A stretch of 64,000 bases of DNA. Source: Candidatus Puniceispirillum sp. (lineage in GTDB: Bacteria > Pseudomonadota > Alphaproteobacteria > Caedimonadales > UBA1908). Both the position numbers and the translations under genes were made by a program. This document shows, piece by piece, positions 41,260 through 47,717 of this stretch (its first letter is position 1; every line of letters begins with the position of its first letter). The notes beneath the pieces were generated by a model. It was not told the DNA's origin. It made no database searches and saw only the letters and a program-made list of their open reading frames with translations. The DNA lies in the NCBI GenBank assembly GCA_013822015.1, contig PNJU01000003.1:1-64000 (forward strand), read 5' to 3'.

Positions 41260-43059
41260 TTAAAAAGGCGCGCGCTTGTGCCACCATGAATCTAACGCAA
41301 GGTTATACTCAGGGGAAGTCTTAGGACGCTCAAGATGGGTCCAATACGCAATCTTAAAGGTGGGTGAGCTATAAAGGGGCACCATGTAGAAATTCCACAA
41401 AAGCACCCGGTCAAGAGCCCGCACTGCCGTTTCAAGCTGGGCGCGAGTGTCGACCTTCAAAAGATGCTCCACAAGGGCGTCAACGGCCGGGTTTTTGATG
41501 CCCGCGTAGTTACGCGCGCCCGTCAAATCCGCGCGCGACGAGGACCAGAACTCAAGCTGTTCATTGCCCGGCGAGATAGACTCCATGATCAGGGCAAAAA
41601 TCACATCAAAATCAAAGGTATTCACGCGGTTTTCATACTGGGCAGGATCCACAAGACGTAAGTTTGCCGTGACCCCTATCTTCTTCAAGGTCGTTACGTA
41701 GTTTTGCAGCGCCTTGGCCGTTTGGTCCTGGGAAAGGATAATCTCAAAGGTCAAGGGCTTTTTGGTTTTCGGATCCACAAGAAGACCGCCCTCATAGGTG
41801 TAGCCCGCCTCTTTTAACAGGGCCTTGGCGCGCTCAAGAACCGCCCGTTCCTCCTTAGGATTGCGCTGCTGGGGCAACGTAAAGGCGCTTGTAAAAACCC
41901 GCGCGGGCACCTTATCCTTCACCGTTTCCAAAAGGGCAAGCTCATCACCCTGGGGCACGCCTTTTGCCTCCATGGGAGATCCTTGGAAATAGCTTTGAAG
42001 ACGCGTGTACTGACCGTAAAAGAGGTTCTTATTCACCCAGTCAAAGTTATAGACAATGGTGAGCGCCTCGCGCAGCTTAGGATTTTGGAATATGGGGCGA
42101 CGTGTGTTAAAAGCAAGCCCTTGGAAGAACTGTGGGTTTTTGAAGGCAAGCGCGACACGGGCGATTTTACCCTCTTTAACCGCGGCAATGTCATAGCCCT
42201 TGGCCCAGTTGGAGGCAACGCTTTCAAGGCGAAAATCGTAGGATCCATTTTTGAAGGCCTCAAACAGAACTGTCTGATCCCGGTAATAATCGTAGATCAC
42301 GCGCTCAAAGTTATATTGCCCCTTGCACACAGGGATGTTGGCGCCCCACCAGTTCTTGACCTTCGTGTACACAAGGCGCCGGGGCGCAGACACTTCTGAG
42401 ATCGTATAGGGTCCACTGCCAACGGGCACCGTCAAATCAGCCTTTTCAAGGCCATGCTTTGAGAAATAAGCCTGGCTCAAGATGGGCATCTCGCCAATGA
42501 TCAGGGGCAACTCCCTGTTGGTCTTTGTGGCAAAGTCAAAACGCACCGTGTGGGCGTCGACGGCCACAGCCTTTGTAATATCCTTGTAATAAGCTTTATA
42601 AAGGGGATGCCCTTTTTCCTTCAGGGTATCAAAAGTCCACACAACGTCACTTGCCAAAATAGGCGTACCGTCGTGAAAGCGCGCCTCTTTGCGCAGGCGA
42701 AAGGTCACCGCCGAATGATCCTCATTCACGCTCACATCCTCGGCCACATAGCCATAGCGTGAGAACGGCTCATCCCAAGAAGAAGCCATAAGGGTTGCGT
42801 GCAAGTAAGACGCGTAAAGAGGTGTGAGCCCCGCCGCCGGCGTTCCCTTGATTACAAAAGGGTTGAGGCTATCAAAGGTGCCCATGGTCCCCATGCGCAG
42901 ATCGCCCCCCTTGGGCGCGTCAGGATTCACATAATCAAAGTGCGTGAAGGTTGCTGGGTACTTGAGTTGCGCGCCCAAAGCAATACCGTGGGCGCCGTAA
43001 CTTGATGTTGCACAACCCAAAAACATTCCGAGTACAATACCAACGCATCCTTTTCCCAT
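41260..43059 (-). CDS. yejA: Periplasmic peptide-binding protein YejA
   Basis: About 599 residues, the size of YejA-type family 5 solute-binding proteins. The signal peptide starts MGKGCVGIVLGMFLGCATSS; a Cys in FLGC could give a lipoprotein, but the box is poor. Family marks are FTHFDYVNPDAPKGGDLRMG, RYGYVAEDVSVNEDHSAVTF and NFDWVNKNLFYGQYTRLQSY. ATG 43059 has AAGGA six nt upstream. It delivers peptides to YejBEF and heads the operon yejA-B-E-F-uvrB. It is divergent from the hip operon, sharing about 260 bp of upstream DNA. Confidence 0.95.
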   Translation of the reverse strand: MGKGCVGIVLGMFLGCATSSYGAHGIALGAQLKYPATFTHFDYVNPDAPKGGDLRMGTMGTFDSLNPFVIKGTPAAGLTPLYASYLHATLMASSWDEPFSRYGYVAEDVSVNEDHSAVTFRLRKEARFHDGTPILASDVVWTFDTLKEKGHPLYKAYYKDITKAVAVDAHTVRFDFATKTNRELPLIIGEMPILSQAYFSKHGLEKADLTVPVGSGPYTISEVSAPRRLVYTKVKNWWGANIPVCKGQYNFERVIYDYYRDQTVLFEAFKNGSYDFRLESVASNWAKGYDIAAVKEGKIARVALAFKNPQFFQGLAFNTRRPIFQNPKLREALTIVYNFDWVNKNLFYGQYTRLQSYFQGSPMEAKGVPQGDELALLETVKDKVPARVFTSAFTLPQQRNPKEERAVLERAKALLKEAGYTYEGGLLVDPKTKKPLTFEIILSQDQTAKALQNYVTTLKKIGVTANLRLVDPAQYENRVNTFDFDVIFALIMESISPGNEQLEFWSSSRADLTGARNYAGIKNPAVDALVEHLLKVDTRAQLETAVRALDRVLLWNFYMVPLYSSPTFKIAYWTHLERPKTSPEYNLALDSWWHKRAPF

Positions 43060-43142
43060 GTGATTCCTTTTTTTGTGAAAATACCTGCAACTCATGCCGT
43101 GGAATTTAGACCCCTTATGGTGAATCTTCAATGTGATAAATA

Positions 43143-43169
43143 TGCAAAACGCTATTAATGACTTTTGCA
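43143..43169. promoter_or_regulatory. Inverted repeat upstream of hip operon
   Basis: TGCAAAA (43143-43149) and TTTTGCA (43163-43169) form a perfect inverted repeat, 13-bp spacer. Related half-sites GCAAAATG occur at 43245-43252 and 43265-43272 around the hip promoter, 20 bp apart, and TGCAAA at 43185-43190. They are candidate binding sites for the HipB-like regulator or for a yejA regulator; the function is inferred. Confidence 0.4.
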
Positions 43170-43254
43170 GAAATCAATTCAGCCTGCAAATACCCTACAA
43201 TGCCAAGAACGAGTATAAAATCACCCATTTTGATTTTTACAGAATGCAAAATGC

Positions 43255-43283
43255 TTGTTTTAAGGCAAAATGGTGTTTAGAAT
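43255..43283 (+). promoter_or_regulatory. Putative promoter of hipBST
   Basis: TTGTTT (43255-43260) and TAGAAT (43278-43283) are 17 bp apart. One GCAAAATG copy (43265-43272) lies between the boxes and another ends just before the -35 box, consistent with repression by the operon's own HTH protein. Confidence 0.5.
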
Positions 43284-43322
43284 GATCCTCAAGGAGTGAG
43301 TTTGATTTCCGTGGAAGGCAAA

Positions 43323-43559
43323 ATGATCGCACTTGACCATATGGACGCCCTCAAAGAGACCTTGCGTTTACTGCGCAAAAAAGCGGGCCTATCCCAAAGT
43401 GAGCTGGCCGAATTGGCGGGTTTGTCACGCACGGCCATTCAAGCTTTAGAGGACGGGAAACAAACATGCAAGCTCATCACGCTTTTTAAAGTGATGCAGG
43501 TGCTGAACCTCAAGCTTTTTGCAGATCACGCCCTCTTAAAAGATGAGCCACGCTCATGA
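43323..43559 (+). CDS. hipB: HipB-like HTH antitoxin
   Basis: About 78 residues, a single XRE-type helix-turn-helix domain: LRLLRKKAGLSQSELAELAG, then LSRTAIQALEDGKQTCKLIT. In HipB families this protein binds the operator and the toxin. ATG 43323 is favoured (GGAAGG at 43313-43318); a TTG at 43302 behind AAGGAG (43291-43296) or the GTG at 43296 would add 7-9 residues. Its stop overlaps the next start (ATGA at 43556-43559), so the three genes are translationally coupled. Called HipB from the HTH plus the two HipA-related genes that follow. Confidence 0.85.
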   Translation: MIALDHMDALKETLRLLRKKAGLSQSELAELAGLSRTAIQALEDGKQTCKLITLFKVMQVLNLKLFADHALLKDEPRS

Positions 43560-43870
43560 GCATGCGCGCCGCCATCTTTTTTCAAAAACAGCGCTGCGGC
43601 GTCCTTGAAGAGGAGATGCGCGGCAAAGCCTACCGCTTCACCTATGATCCCTCTTACCAAGGCCCCATGATTTCCTTAACCCTACCCGTGCGAGGGGAGC
43701 CTTACACGTGGAACGCGTTCCCCCCCTTTTTTGATGGCTTGCTGCCAGAGGGTATGCAGCTGGAGGCGCTCCTACGTATCCACAAGATTGACAAGGATGA
43801 TCTCATGTCCCAGCTTATTACAGTGGGCGAGGATCTGGTGGGCGCCGTCAGCGTGAGAGGTGACATATGA
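43556..43870 (+). CDS. hipS: HipS-like antitoxin (HipA N-terminal domain alone)
   Basis: 104 residues corresponding to subdomain 1 of HipA (the Couple_hipA domain): GVLEEEMRGKAYRFTYDPSY, then NAFPPFFDGLLPEGMQLEAL. In HipBST systems described in E. coli O127, this domain is a separate protein, HipS, and is the true antitoxin that blocks the HipT active site. A second ATG at 43562 is an alternative start. Its start overlaps the hipB stop and its stop overlaps the hipT start, both as ATGA. A frameshifted hipA is the alternative, but the neat overlaps argue against decay. Confidence 0.82.
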   Translation: MSMRAAIFFQKQRCGVLEEEMRGKAYRFTYDPSYQGPMISLTLPVRGEPYTWNAFPPFFDGLLPEGMQLEALLRIHKIDKDDLMSQLITVGEDLVGAVSVRGDI

Positions 43871-44814
43871 CACCGCGCTGTCCCCTCACCTACGACCTTT
43901 TGACGCCTGAAGAGACGCGCTATAGCGTGCGTGGCATGCGCTTGCTCGCGAAAGGCCTCACGCACCTTGAGGATTTTCCCTATACCCAGGCGGAGCAACA
44001 AGAAGAGGCGCGCACGCTTGCTGGCAAGCTGTCCATCCAGGGGGTTCAACCCAAGCTGAGCGCAACCTTGGAGATCGCCCACGGGCGTGGCACCTTCAAG
44101 CCCACGGAAAAAGGGGGCCGCTTCATCATTAAAATGCAAAGCTCCTGGCCCCATTTACCTGAAAATGAGGACCTAACCATGGGTCTTGCGACTCTATCGG
44201 GCATTGAGGTCCCTAAGCACGGCCTGATCTTTTGCAAAGACAACACCTTGAGTTTCTGGATTGCCCGTTTTGACAGGCCCAGCACGCGCACAAAGCTCCC
44301 GCTTGAGGACTTTGCGCAGCTGAGCCAACATACCCGCCAAACCAAATACGACGCCTCCATGGAGCAAGTGGTGCGCATCATTGACACCTACGCCACATTT
44401 CCCATACTGGAGAAAGAAAAACTTCTGCGCCTGACCCTGTTCAACTTCCTTGTGGGAAATGAGGACATGCATCTGAAGAACTTTTCGTTGCTACGTGAGG
44501 GGGACTTGGTGAAGCTCTCCCCCGCCTATGATCTTGTGAACACGACCCTTGCCCTGGGACGCGCCGCGCGCGAAGAGCTTGCCCTGCCCCTTCTTGGAAA
44601 AAAGAATAAGCTCACCTCCCAGGACTTCCTTGGGTATTTCGCCAAAGACCGCTTGGGGCTTACAGCGGCCCGCATTGACCACATCGCAGGACACCTCAAA
44701 AACAGTGTCAGCACATGGGGCACCCGCATTGAAGCGTCTTTCTTGCCTGAAAAAGAAATCTCTACTTACAAAAAGGTAATAGATGACAGATTTTCTATAT
44801 TATTTCAGAATTGA
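43867..44814 (+). CDS. hipT: HipT-like Ser/Thr kinase toxin
   Basis: 315 residues, the HipA kinase core without its N-terminal subdomain. Seen are SIQGVQPKLS (Ser56, Gly-rich loop with likely autophosphorylation site), FIIK (Lys89, ATP-binding), VGNEDMHLKNFSLL (catalytic Asp200) and LSPAYDLVNT (Asp222, metal). All catalytic residues look intact. In E. coli HipT two Ser form an SIS motif; here the second is Gln (SIQ), so one phospho-acceptor appears lost. HipA-type toxins phosphorylate aminoacyl-tRNA synthetases (GltX for HipA, TrpS for HipT) and stop translation. The target here is unknown. The N-terminus (CPLTYDLL...YSVRG) matches stand-alone HipT rather than an interrupted HipA. Confidence 0.87.
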   Translation: MTPRCPLTYDLLTPEETRYSVRGMRLLAKGLTHLEDFPYTQAEQQEEARTLAGKLSIQGVQPKLSATLEIAHGRGTFKPTEKGGRFIIKMQSSWPHLPENEDLTMGLATLSGIEVPKHGLIFCKDNTLSFWIARFDRPSTRTKLPLEDFAQLSQHTRQTKYDASMEQVVRIIDTYATFPILEKEKLLRLTLFNFLVGNEDMHLKNFSLLREGDLVKLSPAYDLVNTTLALGRAAREELALPLLGKKNKLTSQDFLGYFAKDRLGLTAARIDHIAGHLKNSVSTWGTRIEASFLPEKEISTYKKVIDDRFSILFQN

Positions 44815-44874
44815 CATAAAAAAAGATATATGTGATGTTCATTTTATTTTTTGAACTTCAACAAAGCAAATCCC

Positions 44875-46062
44875 ATGAAAACACTCACCTTCCTTGGCTC
44901 TTTTTTATGCATCTCTTCCCTATTTGCCAGCGCTTGCCCGGATCTTGAGGATTCAAAGATCTTGTATGGCGGCGCCCAAGGCAAAGCCCTCTTTGATAGT
45001 GGAAAAGAAAAAATTGTCGCCCTCCTTTGCGACCGCGTCAAGAAGCTCGGCACAGGGGAGCCTAGTAACGCCTGGATCAAAGGCTTTGTCGAAGAGGCCA
45101 TCGCCATGCGCGCAGGGATCGCGCAACTCTCCAAGAGCGACGACGCCCACGCCTTTGGGATGCTTCGCGCGCGCGCACCCGATGAGCACCTTGTGACCCC
45201 TTTGCACGAAGCGCGCTACCTCCCCTTCAAAAAGGAGGTTTTGAAAGATATGTACGCACGTCTCAGCATATCGGGGGAATGGACACAGACGGGCAGCACA
45301 CGCACGCGCCTTCGCGTACTGGCCCCCAAAGACTGGATCCTGGCGGCCCCTGAAGGGACAGTCAGTGACTTTACCCGCTTCAACGAAATTCTCGACGTCG
45401 ACTATCTGCATGAATTCATCAGCCGCGGCGCTTTTGGGACCATCGGGGACAAGAGTGTATCCGCTTATGGACTCGCCATGACCGTACAAGCCCGTATGCA
45501 TCAACCGGGCGTTCCTTTCTCCCCGTCCATTGATCCGGCGCACCTGAAGCCTGGGCTTTTTGTTCAAGCAAGGCTTACCCCAGCATGCCGCCTTCTGCGC
45601 CTAGATGTGGAACACCAAGTTGCAGTCCATGACAAGCAAGTTTGGATCCCAGGACACGGTTTCATGTCCCTTTTACCCGATGAAGCCTCTACGGGCGAAG
45701 AAGCTTCCCTCAGCTTGCCCCTCATGCTTTTGCACACCCACTCGTACTTTCTGCCCTATCTTGAGCCTAATTATGTTGAGGCACTGAAAAGCGCCGCACA
45801 AGGAACGCCCGACAACCAAGACGACCTCATCACGCGTGTGGGACGCTTCGTGCGCCTGTGGAATTTGAATACGCCCGTTGCCCGCGGGAGCGCCGCGTGC
45901 GCTGACTTCATGATGGAAGGGCTTTTTGCAGGCAAAGGGTACAAAGCAACCTTTCAGGACAAGCAAGGCCTGAGCCTTGATCACTTGTGCTATGCAACAA
46001 ACAGCGAAGACACCTTTCTTGCGCGCTTTAAAGAAGCCATCACCCTAACTCCCCATCCTTAA
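44875..46062 (+). CDS. Exported orphan protein
   Basis: About 395 residues. MKTLTFLGSFLCISSLFASA is a signal peptide. ATG 44875 is preferred to an upstream in-frame ATG at 44851, which would delay the signal peptide by 8 residues. The mature protein is a mixed alpha/beta sequence with no motif I can name; an HxxE-like LDVDYLHEFISR and WIPGHGFMSLLPDE stand out but suggest no enzyme. A TTGACA at 44811-44816, overlapping the hipT stop, may be its -35 box. It is followed at 55 nt by another exported protein. Function unknown. Confidence 0.72.
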   Translation: MKTLTFLGSFLCISSLFASACPDLEDSKILYGGAQGKALFDSGKEKIVALLCDRVKKLGTGEPSNAWIKGFVEEAIAMRAGIAQLSKSDDAHAFGMLRARAPDEHLVTPLHEARYLPFKKEVLKDMYARLSISGEWTQTGSTRTRLRVLAPKDWILAAPEGTVSDFTRFNEILDVDYLHEFISRGAFGTIGDKSVSAYGLAMTVQARMHQPGVPFSPSIDPAHLKPGLFVQARLTPACRLLRLDVEHQVAVHDKQVWIPGHGFMSLLPDEASTGEEASLSLPLMLLHTHSYFLPYLEPNYVEALKSAAQGTPDNQDDLITRVGRFVRLWNLNTPVARGSAACADFMMEGLFAGKGYKATFQDKQGLSLDHLCYATNSEDTFLARFKEAITLTPHP

Positions 46063-46117
46063 GCGTTCGTTAGGAAGATTTGCGCACACTGAAGTAGAGA
46101 ACATAAGGACAAAAAAA

Positions 46118-47026
46118 ATGAAGAAAACCATCCCTCTCTTTTTTGTGTTACTGGGCGCGTGCAGCGCCCATGCCAGCGAGTTTGGGCCAGACGATATAAA
46201 ATTATCCCCTGCAAGGGCGGCGCAAAAAGAGCTTCAAGATCAGCTCGTCAAACAGAGCGTGCGCGAAACTTACGCCCGCATGAACAGCGCCTGGTCCTAT
46301 CCTGAGGGTGAGGATAGCGATAAAGACGATAAGATGGTCACCCATGCTAAGGTCTGGACCATCGACACGATTTCCCACACCTTCCAAAAAGACGGACAAA
46401 CAATCGTCGCACGCATGCGCACTTTTGTTTTGAAAGAGGAGCCCCATACAATCCTCGAGGCCCTTGATGAACTCGTGGCGTCCCCAGCCCAGGTTGATTG
46501 TACCTTGGCCCTTATGACCGCACAGGCTTTTGCCCTGCGCGCCCTGATGGGGGACACACTTTTTCGCAAGTACGCCGTTTTGCTGCACGGCTCCCTAAGC
46601 AACAAAACCACATTTTTTTCAGCACTTCCCAGGCATTTTCTGCGCTTAAGCCACACCCCCATCAGGGGAGGGCATTTTTACCATATTACAAATGTTCCCC
46701 AGTACGGCGCCCTTAACCCCTATGGGTATGATGCGGGGCACAACGTTTTTTGCCTTGGGGAGAACCTCCACATTGGTTTTGGCCCCTTTTTTAGAGATGG
46801 CCCAAAGCGCGAGCAAGACATCGCTGAACACTTAAGGGAAAACTATAGGCACGAGGTTTTAAAACATAAGGGGCTGAACGCAATGAGCAAGCACAGTTAT
46901 CACAAGCACCGTACTGAGCATCAAAAACTAAGTACGGCCCGCATATCTTTCCGCTTCACGGAGTATACAGAAGAAGGCCTTGCCTACCACTTCGGCAACC
47001 TCATGCTGGAAGCTCTTGATTTTTAA
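46118..47026 (+). CDS. Exported protein, possible transglutaminase-like fold
   Basis: 302 residues. MKKTIPLFFVLLGACSAHAS is a signal peptide; LLGAC could act as a lipobox, or cleavage may follow AHA. AAGGA sits about 10 nt before the ATG. Residues ~125-225 recall bacterial protein-glutamine gamma-glutamyltransferases (Tgl-type): a Cys128 at the start of a helix (VDCTLALMTAQAFALRALMG), then GGHFYHITNVPQYGALNPYG and GHNVFCLGENLHIGFGPFF, parallel to the Tgl pattern of N-P-x-Y followed by GENVIxLG and a GFG/GHG element. This is a remembered pattern, not an alignment. If right, it would be a secreted protein-crosslinking or deamidating enzyme. Otherwise an orphan. Confidence 0.7.
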   Translation: MKKTIPLFFVLLGACSAHASEFGPDDIKLSPARAAQKELQDQLVKQSVRETYARMNSAWSYPEGEDSDKDDKMVTHAKVWTIDTISHTFQKDGQTIVARMRTFVLKEEPHTILEALDELVASPAQVDCTLALMTAQAFALRALMGDTLFRKYAVLLHGSLSNKTTFFSALPRHFLRLSHTPIRGGHFYHITNVPQYGALNPYGYDAGHNVFCLGENLHIGFGPFFRDGPKREQDIAEHLRENYRHEVLKHKGLNAMSKHSYHKHRTEHQKLSTARISFRFTEYTEEGLAYHFGNLMLEALDF

Positions 47027-47045
47027 GGGAGTCCGCAAATAGAGG

Positions 47046-47717
47046 TTAAGCCGCCTTGGGAGACTGTGCAGCGGGCGCTGGTGCAGGCGTGGCAGGACTT
47101 GCTGGTGCCGCCCCACTCCCTGTGTTAGGTGCAGCGGGGGGCGTCGTAGCTGGAGCCGCGGCCCCAGCGGGAGGCAGCGGTGTTGGACTATCACTCAGGG
47201 TGCGCAAGTACGCAATCAGATCCGCGCGCTCTTGGGTTTTGCTTACACCCACGAAGGACATCTTTGTGCCCTTAATAAAATTCCGTGGCTTGTGGAGGAA
47301 AGCGTTCAGGTTCGCGTAGTCCCACTTCTTGCCCTCTTTCCCAAGGGCCATGGCGCCGTCTGAGTAAGTAAAGGTTGTATCGTGGGCGATGGGCCGATTG
47401 ACCACGTCCCACAAGTGGGGCCCCTGCTTATTGGCGCCACCCTTTTCAAGGACGTGACACTGGAGGCACTTTTTGGCGATTTTTTCGCCTTCTTGAACAT
47501 TTGCGCTGGCAAGAAGGGGTTCAATGGGCTCAAGCACATCTTCGGCTGCAGGGGCTGCGCCCCCTTTTGTGCCTTGATCCGCATCGCCGTGCGAGTACAC
47601 ATTGGGCGCGCTCAGATCTGGATGAACAAGTAGCTCAGCCACTTTACCGCTGACCTTGCCGATTAAGAGCGCCAGAATGAGGCCCATCAGCACCTTGTTC
47701 CACTCAAATCCGTCCAT
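47046..47717 (-). CDS. Membrane-anchored cytochrome c (CycM-like)
   Basis: 223 residues. An uncleaved N-terminal anchor (LMGLILALLIGKVSGKVAEL) holds a class I cytochrome c domain with heme-binding C84LQC87H88 and likely axial Met153 in FIKGTKMSFVGV. The C-terminal 45 residues are an Ala/Pro-rich tail of low complexity. By family it carries electrons between the bc1 complex and a terminal oxidase on the periplasmic side of the inner membrane, supporting an aerobic respiratory chain. It starts 36 nt after rmuC stops; both are on the minus strand. Confidence 0.92.
   Translation of the reverse strand: MDGFEWNKVLMGLILALLIGKVSGKVAELLVHPDLSAPNVYSHGDADQGTKGGAAPAAEDVLEPIEPLLASANVQEGEKIAKKCLQCHVLEKGGANKQGPHLWDVVNRPIAHDTTFTYSDGAMALGKEGKKWDYANLNAFLHKPRNFIKGTKMSFVGVSKTQERADLIAYLRTLSDSPTPLPPAGAAAPATTPPAAPNTGSGAAPASPATPAPAPAAQSPKAA

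Follow-up and report, generated by a model that had tools for sequence, protein, structure and literature searches.

The window, by which we mean the whole stretch of 64,000 nucleotides analysed here, carries three intact open reading frames, all on the plus strand, that encode in order an HTH protein (hipB), a stand-alone HipA N-subdomain (hipS) and a HipA-type kinase core (hipT; Table 1). The genes are joined by two ATGA overlaps, with the hipS ATG at 43556 and the end of hipB at 43559, and the hipT ATG at 43867 and the end of hipS at 43870, as an earlier sequence-only reading of this DNA had described. Comparison with Pfam matched HipB to HTH_3 (E 9e-12), HipS to Couple_hipA as a stand-alone domain (5e-25) and HipT to HipA_C (1.6e-44). 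These domains agree with the HipBST organisation proposed in that reading: the kinase core lacks the N-subdomain, a separate hipS lies directly upstream, and the HTH gene precedes hipS. The single protein with N-subdomain and kinase core that defines HipBA is not present at the locus. Given the E-values and the conservation across many phyla, the domain assignment is, as judged from sequence, far beyond chance. The start of hipB is uncertain, with TTG 43302, GTG 43296 (the longest ORF) and ATG 43323 all candidates; an AAGGAG at 43291-43296 lies 5 nt upstream of the TTG, and, numbered from this TTG, the recognition-helix residues of HipB are S42, R43, T44 and Q47. In the window genome (1.98 Mb in 18 contigs) HipA_C and Couple_hipA each match once, in both cases at hipBST. 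We consider it likely that the locus is a chromosomal toxin-antitoxin module belonging to the Legionella (SPsiQ) type of HipBST.

Table 1. Features of the hipBST locus and its upstream region (positions in the window).
Feature	Position	Strand	Details
Stretch of ~3.9 kb holding hipBST plus two other genes	43132..47045		junction of 216 and 222 bp in two congeners
Distal operator-like site	43159..43176		TGACTTTTGCAGAAATCA; 7/9 pairs palindromic; 125 nt before TTG 43302
Proximal operator-like site	43231..43248		TGATTTTTACAGAATGCA; 14/18 identical to distal site; 53 nt before TTG 43302
Candidate promoter, TTGTTT, 17 nt, TAGAAT	43255..43283	+	by eye; 3/6 and 5/6 consensus bases
hipB, HTH protein	43302..43559	+	85 aa from TTG; 87 aa from GTG 43296
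hipS, stand-alone HipA N-subdomain	43556..43870	+	104 aa; best solved match HipS(Lp)
HipS Met67 codon	43754..43756	+	aligned with Trp65 of HipS in E. coli O127
hipT, HipA-type Ser/Thr kinase core	43867..44814	+	315 aa; best solved match HipT(Lp)
Codons of HipT Gly-rich loop, S56-I57-Q58-G59	44032..44043	+	read from sequence

The conservation of the gene split was followed in 84 HipT rows: that of the window, 79 from the 80 loci found in a similarity search (L039, without a complete HipT ORF, was dropped) and four from further loci. HipS and HipT were separate ORFs in all 84 and fused in none. With the minus-strand loci L085 and L086 set aside, the two genes overlapped by 4 nt in 74 of 82 rows, the other eight reading -1 (five rows), -7, -8 and +29. 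Included in these rows are two short HipS ORFs (L045, 66 aa; L052, 63 aa) and one HipS without the PEG motif (L044). L083 and L002 are identical DNA, and L083 was kept in the counts of 84 and of 83; L084 was treated as a near copy of L003, with a 1-kb test stretch that was not letter-identical. The sequence-only reading had itself raised, as a case against its proposal, that HipT and HipS might be a recent frameshift of an intact hipA; the locus would then be a decaying hipBA module. With hipB followed by N-subdomain and kinase core, the order does match hipBA, and the N-subdomain directly adjoins the core. However, the split is present in every row, mostly with the same 4-nt overlap and in loci labelled with many phyla, it is shared by the nearest relative (a member of the same genus, 77-78% identical), and the fused HipAs lie outside the split group on the tree described below. 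We therefore rejected a recent frameshift as extremely improbable.

A search of 398 Pseudomonadota genomes returned no second close HipT, the best match beyond the window genome having an E-value of 2e-22 and 37% identity. This search yielded 28 new loci (L122-L149), of which 21 encode kinase and N-subdomain in one ORF and five (L125, L129, L133, L140 and L147) had no HipS match. L126 and L128 were the only E. coli-type split loci found, and both read SISG and PEGW, so that the pairing of the SIS loop with the HipS Trp is a sample of two.

Compared with solved structures, the window HipT was closest to HipT(Lp) (E 1e-85), with the HipT of E. coli O127 next (1e-19), and HipS to HipS(Lp) (4e-29), followed by Haemophilus HI_0666 (6e-14) and E. 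coli O127 (3e-11); the best solved match of HipB was HipB(Lp) (7e-11), an identity that rests on the general HTH domain. An AlphaFold model of HipT (mean pLDDT 86.5) matched the Legionella kinase structures 7vkc and 7wcf with a TM-score of 0.93, and E. coli O127 HipT with 0.76-0.81 normalised by query; the Gly-rich loop falls below a pLDDT of 50, and its position is thus not predicted. We also built a quick maximum-likelihood tree from 48 hand-picked HipT rows (32 split, two E. coli-type and 14 fused HipAs), which contains Legionella species but not L. pneumophila itself. The window HipT fell inside the split SPsiQ group (SH-aLRT 99), adjoining L002 and then Paracaedibacteraceae, with the two E. 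coli-type HipTs as sister to that group (95) and the 14 fused HipAs outside; many inner branches of this tree are weak, and 15 of 45 are starred. In sequence, fold and tree alike, then, the window kinase is closest to the HipT(Lp) type. HipT as such has been defined as clade III (PMC8262856).

The sequence-only reading had taken E. coli O127 as its point of reference, and one could see here an E. coli O127-kind HipBST from which the second serine and the Trp plug have disappeared and whose target is TrpS; its gene order and domain content would be the same. The E-values given above, the fold match and the tree favour the Legionella branch over such a derivation, and the toxicity of HipT(Lp) is reported not to be rescued by GltX or TrpS, nor with PheS, on which a phosphosite was found (PMC10653801). 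E. coli O127 was accordingly rejected as the closest relative, and we regard the lapsed E. coli-kind module as quite improbable.

The HipBST of L. pneumophila (Lpg2368-2370; PDB 7vkb, 7vkc, 7wcf, 8ezr, 8ezs and 8ezt) resembles the window operon in its three genes with N-subdomain and kinase core split, in a loop of one serine followed by Gln (SVQ there, SIQ in the window), in a HipS without Trp, in operators about 71-72 bp apart, and in about half of the HipT residues (48-51% identical in the fold match). It differs in that half-sites read TGAYTT in the window and are of TTACTG type in Legionellaceae loci, in the S-R-T..Q recognition helix of the window HipB, and in the number of sites, two operator-like sites in the window against three reported in Legionella. 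The HipBST of E. coli O127:H6 (PDB 7ab3, 7ab4 and 7ab5) shares gene order, the separate HipS N-subdomain and the kinase motifs, but it has an SIS loop with two phospho-serines, a HipS Trp65 plug and TrpS as its target, and its HipT is 24-26% identical to that of the window in the fold match. The HipBA systems of E. coli K-12 and Shewanella have the kinase fold and motifs and an HTH protein, whereas their kinase retains the N-subdomain in one chain and their antitoxin is HipB (PMC8262856). The present kind of hipBST is already known and solved, in Legionella, and the window operon adds one member to it.

The HipT of the window has the Gly-rich loop expected of a HipA kinase, along with its catalytic residues and those that bind Mg. 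Lys89, Asp200 and Asp222, which the sequence-only reading had picked out, are present at these numbers and are invariant in 83 of 83 aligned relatives, as are K63, R134, R137, D148, H202, K204 and N205. The loop itself reads S56-I57-Q58-G59, so that SIQ does stand where SIS had been expected. It is no oddity, however: among the 84 rows SIQ occurs in 76 and SVQ in six, together 82, with AIQ in one (L005) and SIP in one (L053). Because rows were picked by similarity to the window HipT, with search peptides that excluded the loop, these counts, like those for the HipS Trp below, describe this branch and not all HipTs. The SIQ or SPsiQ group has already been named in the literature, and SVQ or SIQ is reported throughout Legionella species (PMC10653801).

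Published work on HipT(Lp) suggests how such a loop may act. Ser54 of HipT(Lp) is autophosphorylated within SVQGVQK, and the phosphorylated kinase binds AMP-PNP; once HipS binds, the loop becomes helical and blocks ATP, and AMP-PNP binding is abolished (PMC9325769). In the same account Lys40, Arg131 and Arg134 hold the phosphoserine in place, and Asp145 and Lys201 do so for Gln56. By alignment, Arg134, Arg137, Asp148 and Lys204 of the window HipT are counterparts of HipT(Lp) contact residues. Since these are matched here and conserved in 83 of 83 relatives, the window loop is expected to act as in HipT(Lp). The S54A and S54D variants of HipT(Lp) are still toxic (PMC10653801). For the E. coli kinase published accounts conflict, S57A being toxic in PMC9325769 and non-toxic in PMC10627512. 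The suggestion that autophosphorylation may regulate this kinase differently agrees with the HipT(Lp) work, though it is not a new prediction. One row, from a Paracaedibacteraceae metagenome (L005:3001-3948), reads AIQ for SIQ and is without a serine at the autophosphorylation position. This single metagenome-assembled row fits the published view of a dispensable serine, and its kinase would offer a natural test of whether autophosphorylation matters in the SPsiQ branch.

A similar outcome applies to HipS. The segment LLPEGMQ lacks the Trp that plugs the E. coli HipT active site, as had been read, and Met67 aligns with the Trp of E. coli O127 HipS. This is no peculiarity of the window, since none of 83 aligned relatives has a Trp at the plug position or anywhere in columns 60-72. 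The plug column is variable (Ile, Val, Phe, Met, Gln, Pro and others), and Gly66 before it and Leu69 after it are invariant in 83 of 83. Trp65 is likewise absent from HipS(Lp), where neutralisation works without it (PMC10653801). An SIQ or SVQ loop together with a HipS without Trp is the rule in the Legionella branch, and already studied. Haemophilus HI_0666 and E. coli O127 HipS both carry Trp after PEG. In three fused HipAs (L088, L090 and L122) we observed a TISG, TVSG or TLSG loop while their own N-subdomain reads PEGW; undivided kinases can therefore carry, in cis, the same Trp as E. coli HipS.

Upstream of hipB lie two operator-like 18-mers, 72 bp apart from start to start with a gap of 54 bp, the proximal one with 5 of 9 palindromic pairs. 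In Legionella, HipB is reported to bind three operators of 18 nt, separated by gaps of 53 bp (PMC10653801); the window has two sites of this length with nearly this gap and with other half-sites. Binding of the pair by the window's own HipB would be expected by analogy, with half-sites that differ from those of Legionella. The candidate promoter is not listed by the promoter scan, and the scans for promoters (3 against a shuffle mean of 1.8) and terminators (3 against 2.6) found no more than in shuffles. CTTGTTTT, which follows the proximal site, recurs in the upstream DNA of several relatives. A 10-bp direct repeat of GCAAAAYGCT type upstream of hipB was rejected as an operator, as it had been picked from the window itself and relatives are without it, with one near match in L006 and weak ones on the other strand in L002 and L005.

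Six alphaproteobacterial relatives have similar sites, 71-72 bp apart in five (L002, L004, L005, L006 and L007) and 61 bp apart in L003; their consensus was drawn by eye from the same loci, the L006 sites are weak, and the shuffle values are descriptive. Legionellaceae have TTACTGCTATAACAGTAA-type sites 71 bp apart (L067 and L077; also L049), a spacing equal to the published 53-bp gap plus 18. After a first look at 76 loci, including L024 with its run of N, we applied a consensus-free test to 70 loci, omitting L024, three loci with too little upstream DNA (L028, L050 and L059), L083, L084 and four near-duplicates. Loci without a HipB match (L038, L070, L085 and L086) entered no operator count. 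Upstream of hipB, 35 of 70 loci had self-similar 18-mers that agree at 14 or more of their 18 positions and lie 70-73 bp apart. Among 66 downstream regions one had such a pair, and ten dinucleotide shuffles gave 0-2 of 70; the other half of the loci had no pair at this threshold. Pair distances outside 70-73 bp favour 41, 61, 82 and 122 bp, with a period near 10 (R 0.63 at 10.0 and 10.1, 0.11 at 11; n=39), a descriptive result to which one locus may contribute several distances.

The half-sites fall into classes that go with the HipB recognition helix. With three class strings drawn after seeing the data (shuffle false-positive rates 0, 0 and 0.0026 in 390 shuffles), 72 of 78 upstream regions belong to exactly one class, namely TTACYG (53), TTCCCT (13) or TGAYTT (6), and six to none. 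In the numbering from the window TTG, HipB has Gly42 and Asp48 in all 53 TTACYG loci and Ser42, Arg43, Thr44 and Gln47 in all six TGAYTT loci. Asn44 is found in every one of the 13 TTCCCT loci and in none of the 53 with TTACYG. Among the six unclassed loci, Asn44 is found in L018, L028 (with little upstream DNA) and L057, and the window-type helix in L006. On the HipT tree the Asn44 trait needs only two changes and the TTCCCT label five; few independent events therefore underlie the match of operator and helix, and common ancestry is a serious competing explanation. On balance we lean towards the view that the SPsiQ branch shares operator geometry more than operator sequence (mostly 71-72 bp, or seven helical turns, less often 41, 61 or 82 bp, and mostly one helix face), and that the half-site has switched together with the HipB helix, TTACYG going with Gly42 and Asp48, TTCCCT with Asn44, and TGAYTT with Ser42-Arg43-Thr44..Gln47.

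A further possibility is that the kinase is exported into a host cell and its toxin-antitoxin layout is secondary. One relative is Candidatus Odyssella (L004), whose family lives in amoebae. The Legionella relative Lpg2370 was moreover introduced as a Dot/Icm effector (PMC9325769). Against export stands the recurrence of operon and operators across genomes that are labelled as belonging to many phyla, and we judge it very improbable.

As to genomic place, hipBST and two further genes occupy a stretch that is absent at the corresponding position in two congeners (G001 and G002), where the gene for a peptide-transporter protein (41260-43131 in the window) adjoins a cytochrome c gene (47046-47717) with 216 and 222 bp between them. 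We found no HipT match in G001, and in G002 a hipBST (78%) lies on another contig, near a Fic gene. On that contig the Fic/DOC gene (DUF4172 and Fic; L120:1875-2651) is upstream of hipBST. The G+C contents of hipBST (0.533), the two downstream genes (0.528) and the window (0.524) are alike. The pattern looks like patchy gain or loss of a module. The two downstream genes (44875-46062 and 46118-47026) are without Pfam match and have, by eye, signal-peptide-like beginnings; the first had no match in four relatives (G001, G002, G005 and G009).

Reasoning from the published HipBST(Lp) work, we propose that HipT would be the toxin and HipS its antitoxin. The detached N-subdomain, HipS, would bind HipT and, needing no Trp plug, displace the Gly-rich loop from the ATP site. 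Autophosphorylation of Ser56 may occur, but would neither switch the kinase off nor be required for it, and Gln58, held by Asp148 and Lys204, would take the place of the second serine of E. coli HipT. HipB would bind the two 18-bp operators, which are separated by about seven turns of the helix, and would repress the hipBST operon either by itself or together with HipS-HipT.

The SIQ loop and the missing Trp thus mark a widespread branch of HipBST and no local oddity, and the Legionella system, rather than that of E. coli, becomes the model to reason from. The paired, evenly spaced operator-like sites upstream of hipB are the new element here; in the open-access literature searched we found neither this operator geometry outside Legionella nor its link to the HipB helix, though both may already be in print. 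If this view of the operators is true, it would point to operators being bridged by a HipBST assembly of fixed size, as well as to a readable HipB-operator code, so that the operator bound by a given HipB could be predicted from how recognition helix and half-site pair. The operator spacing common to this alphaproteobacterium, the Legionellaceae and other phyla provides a testable handle on tripartite self-repression.
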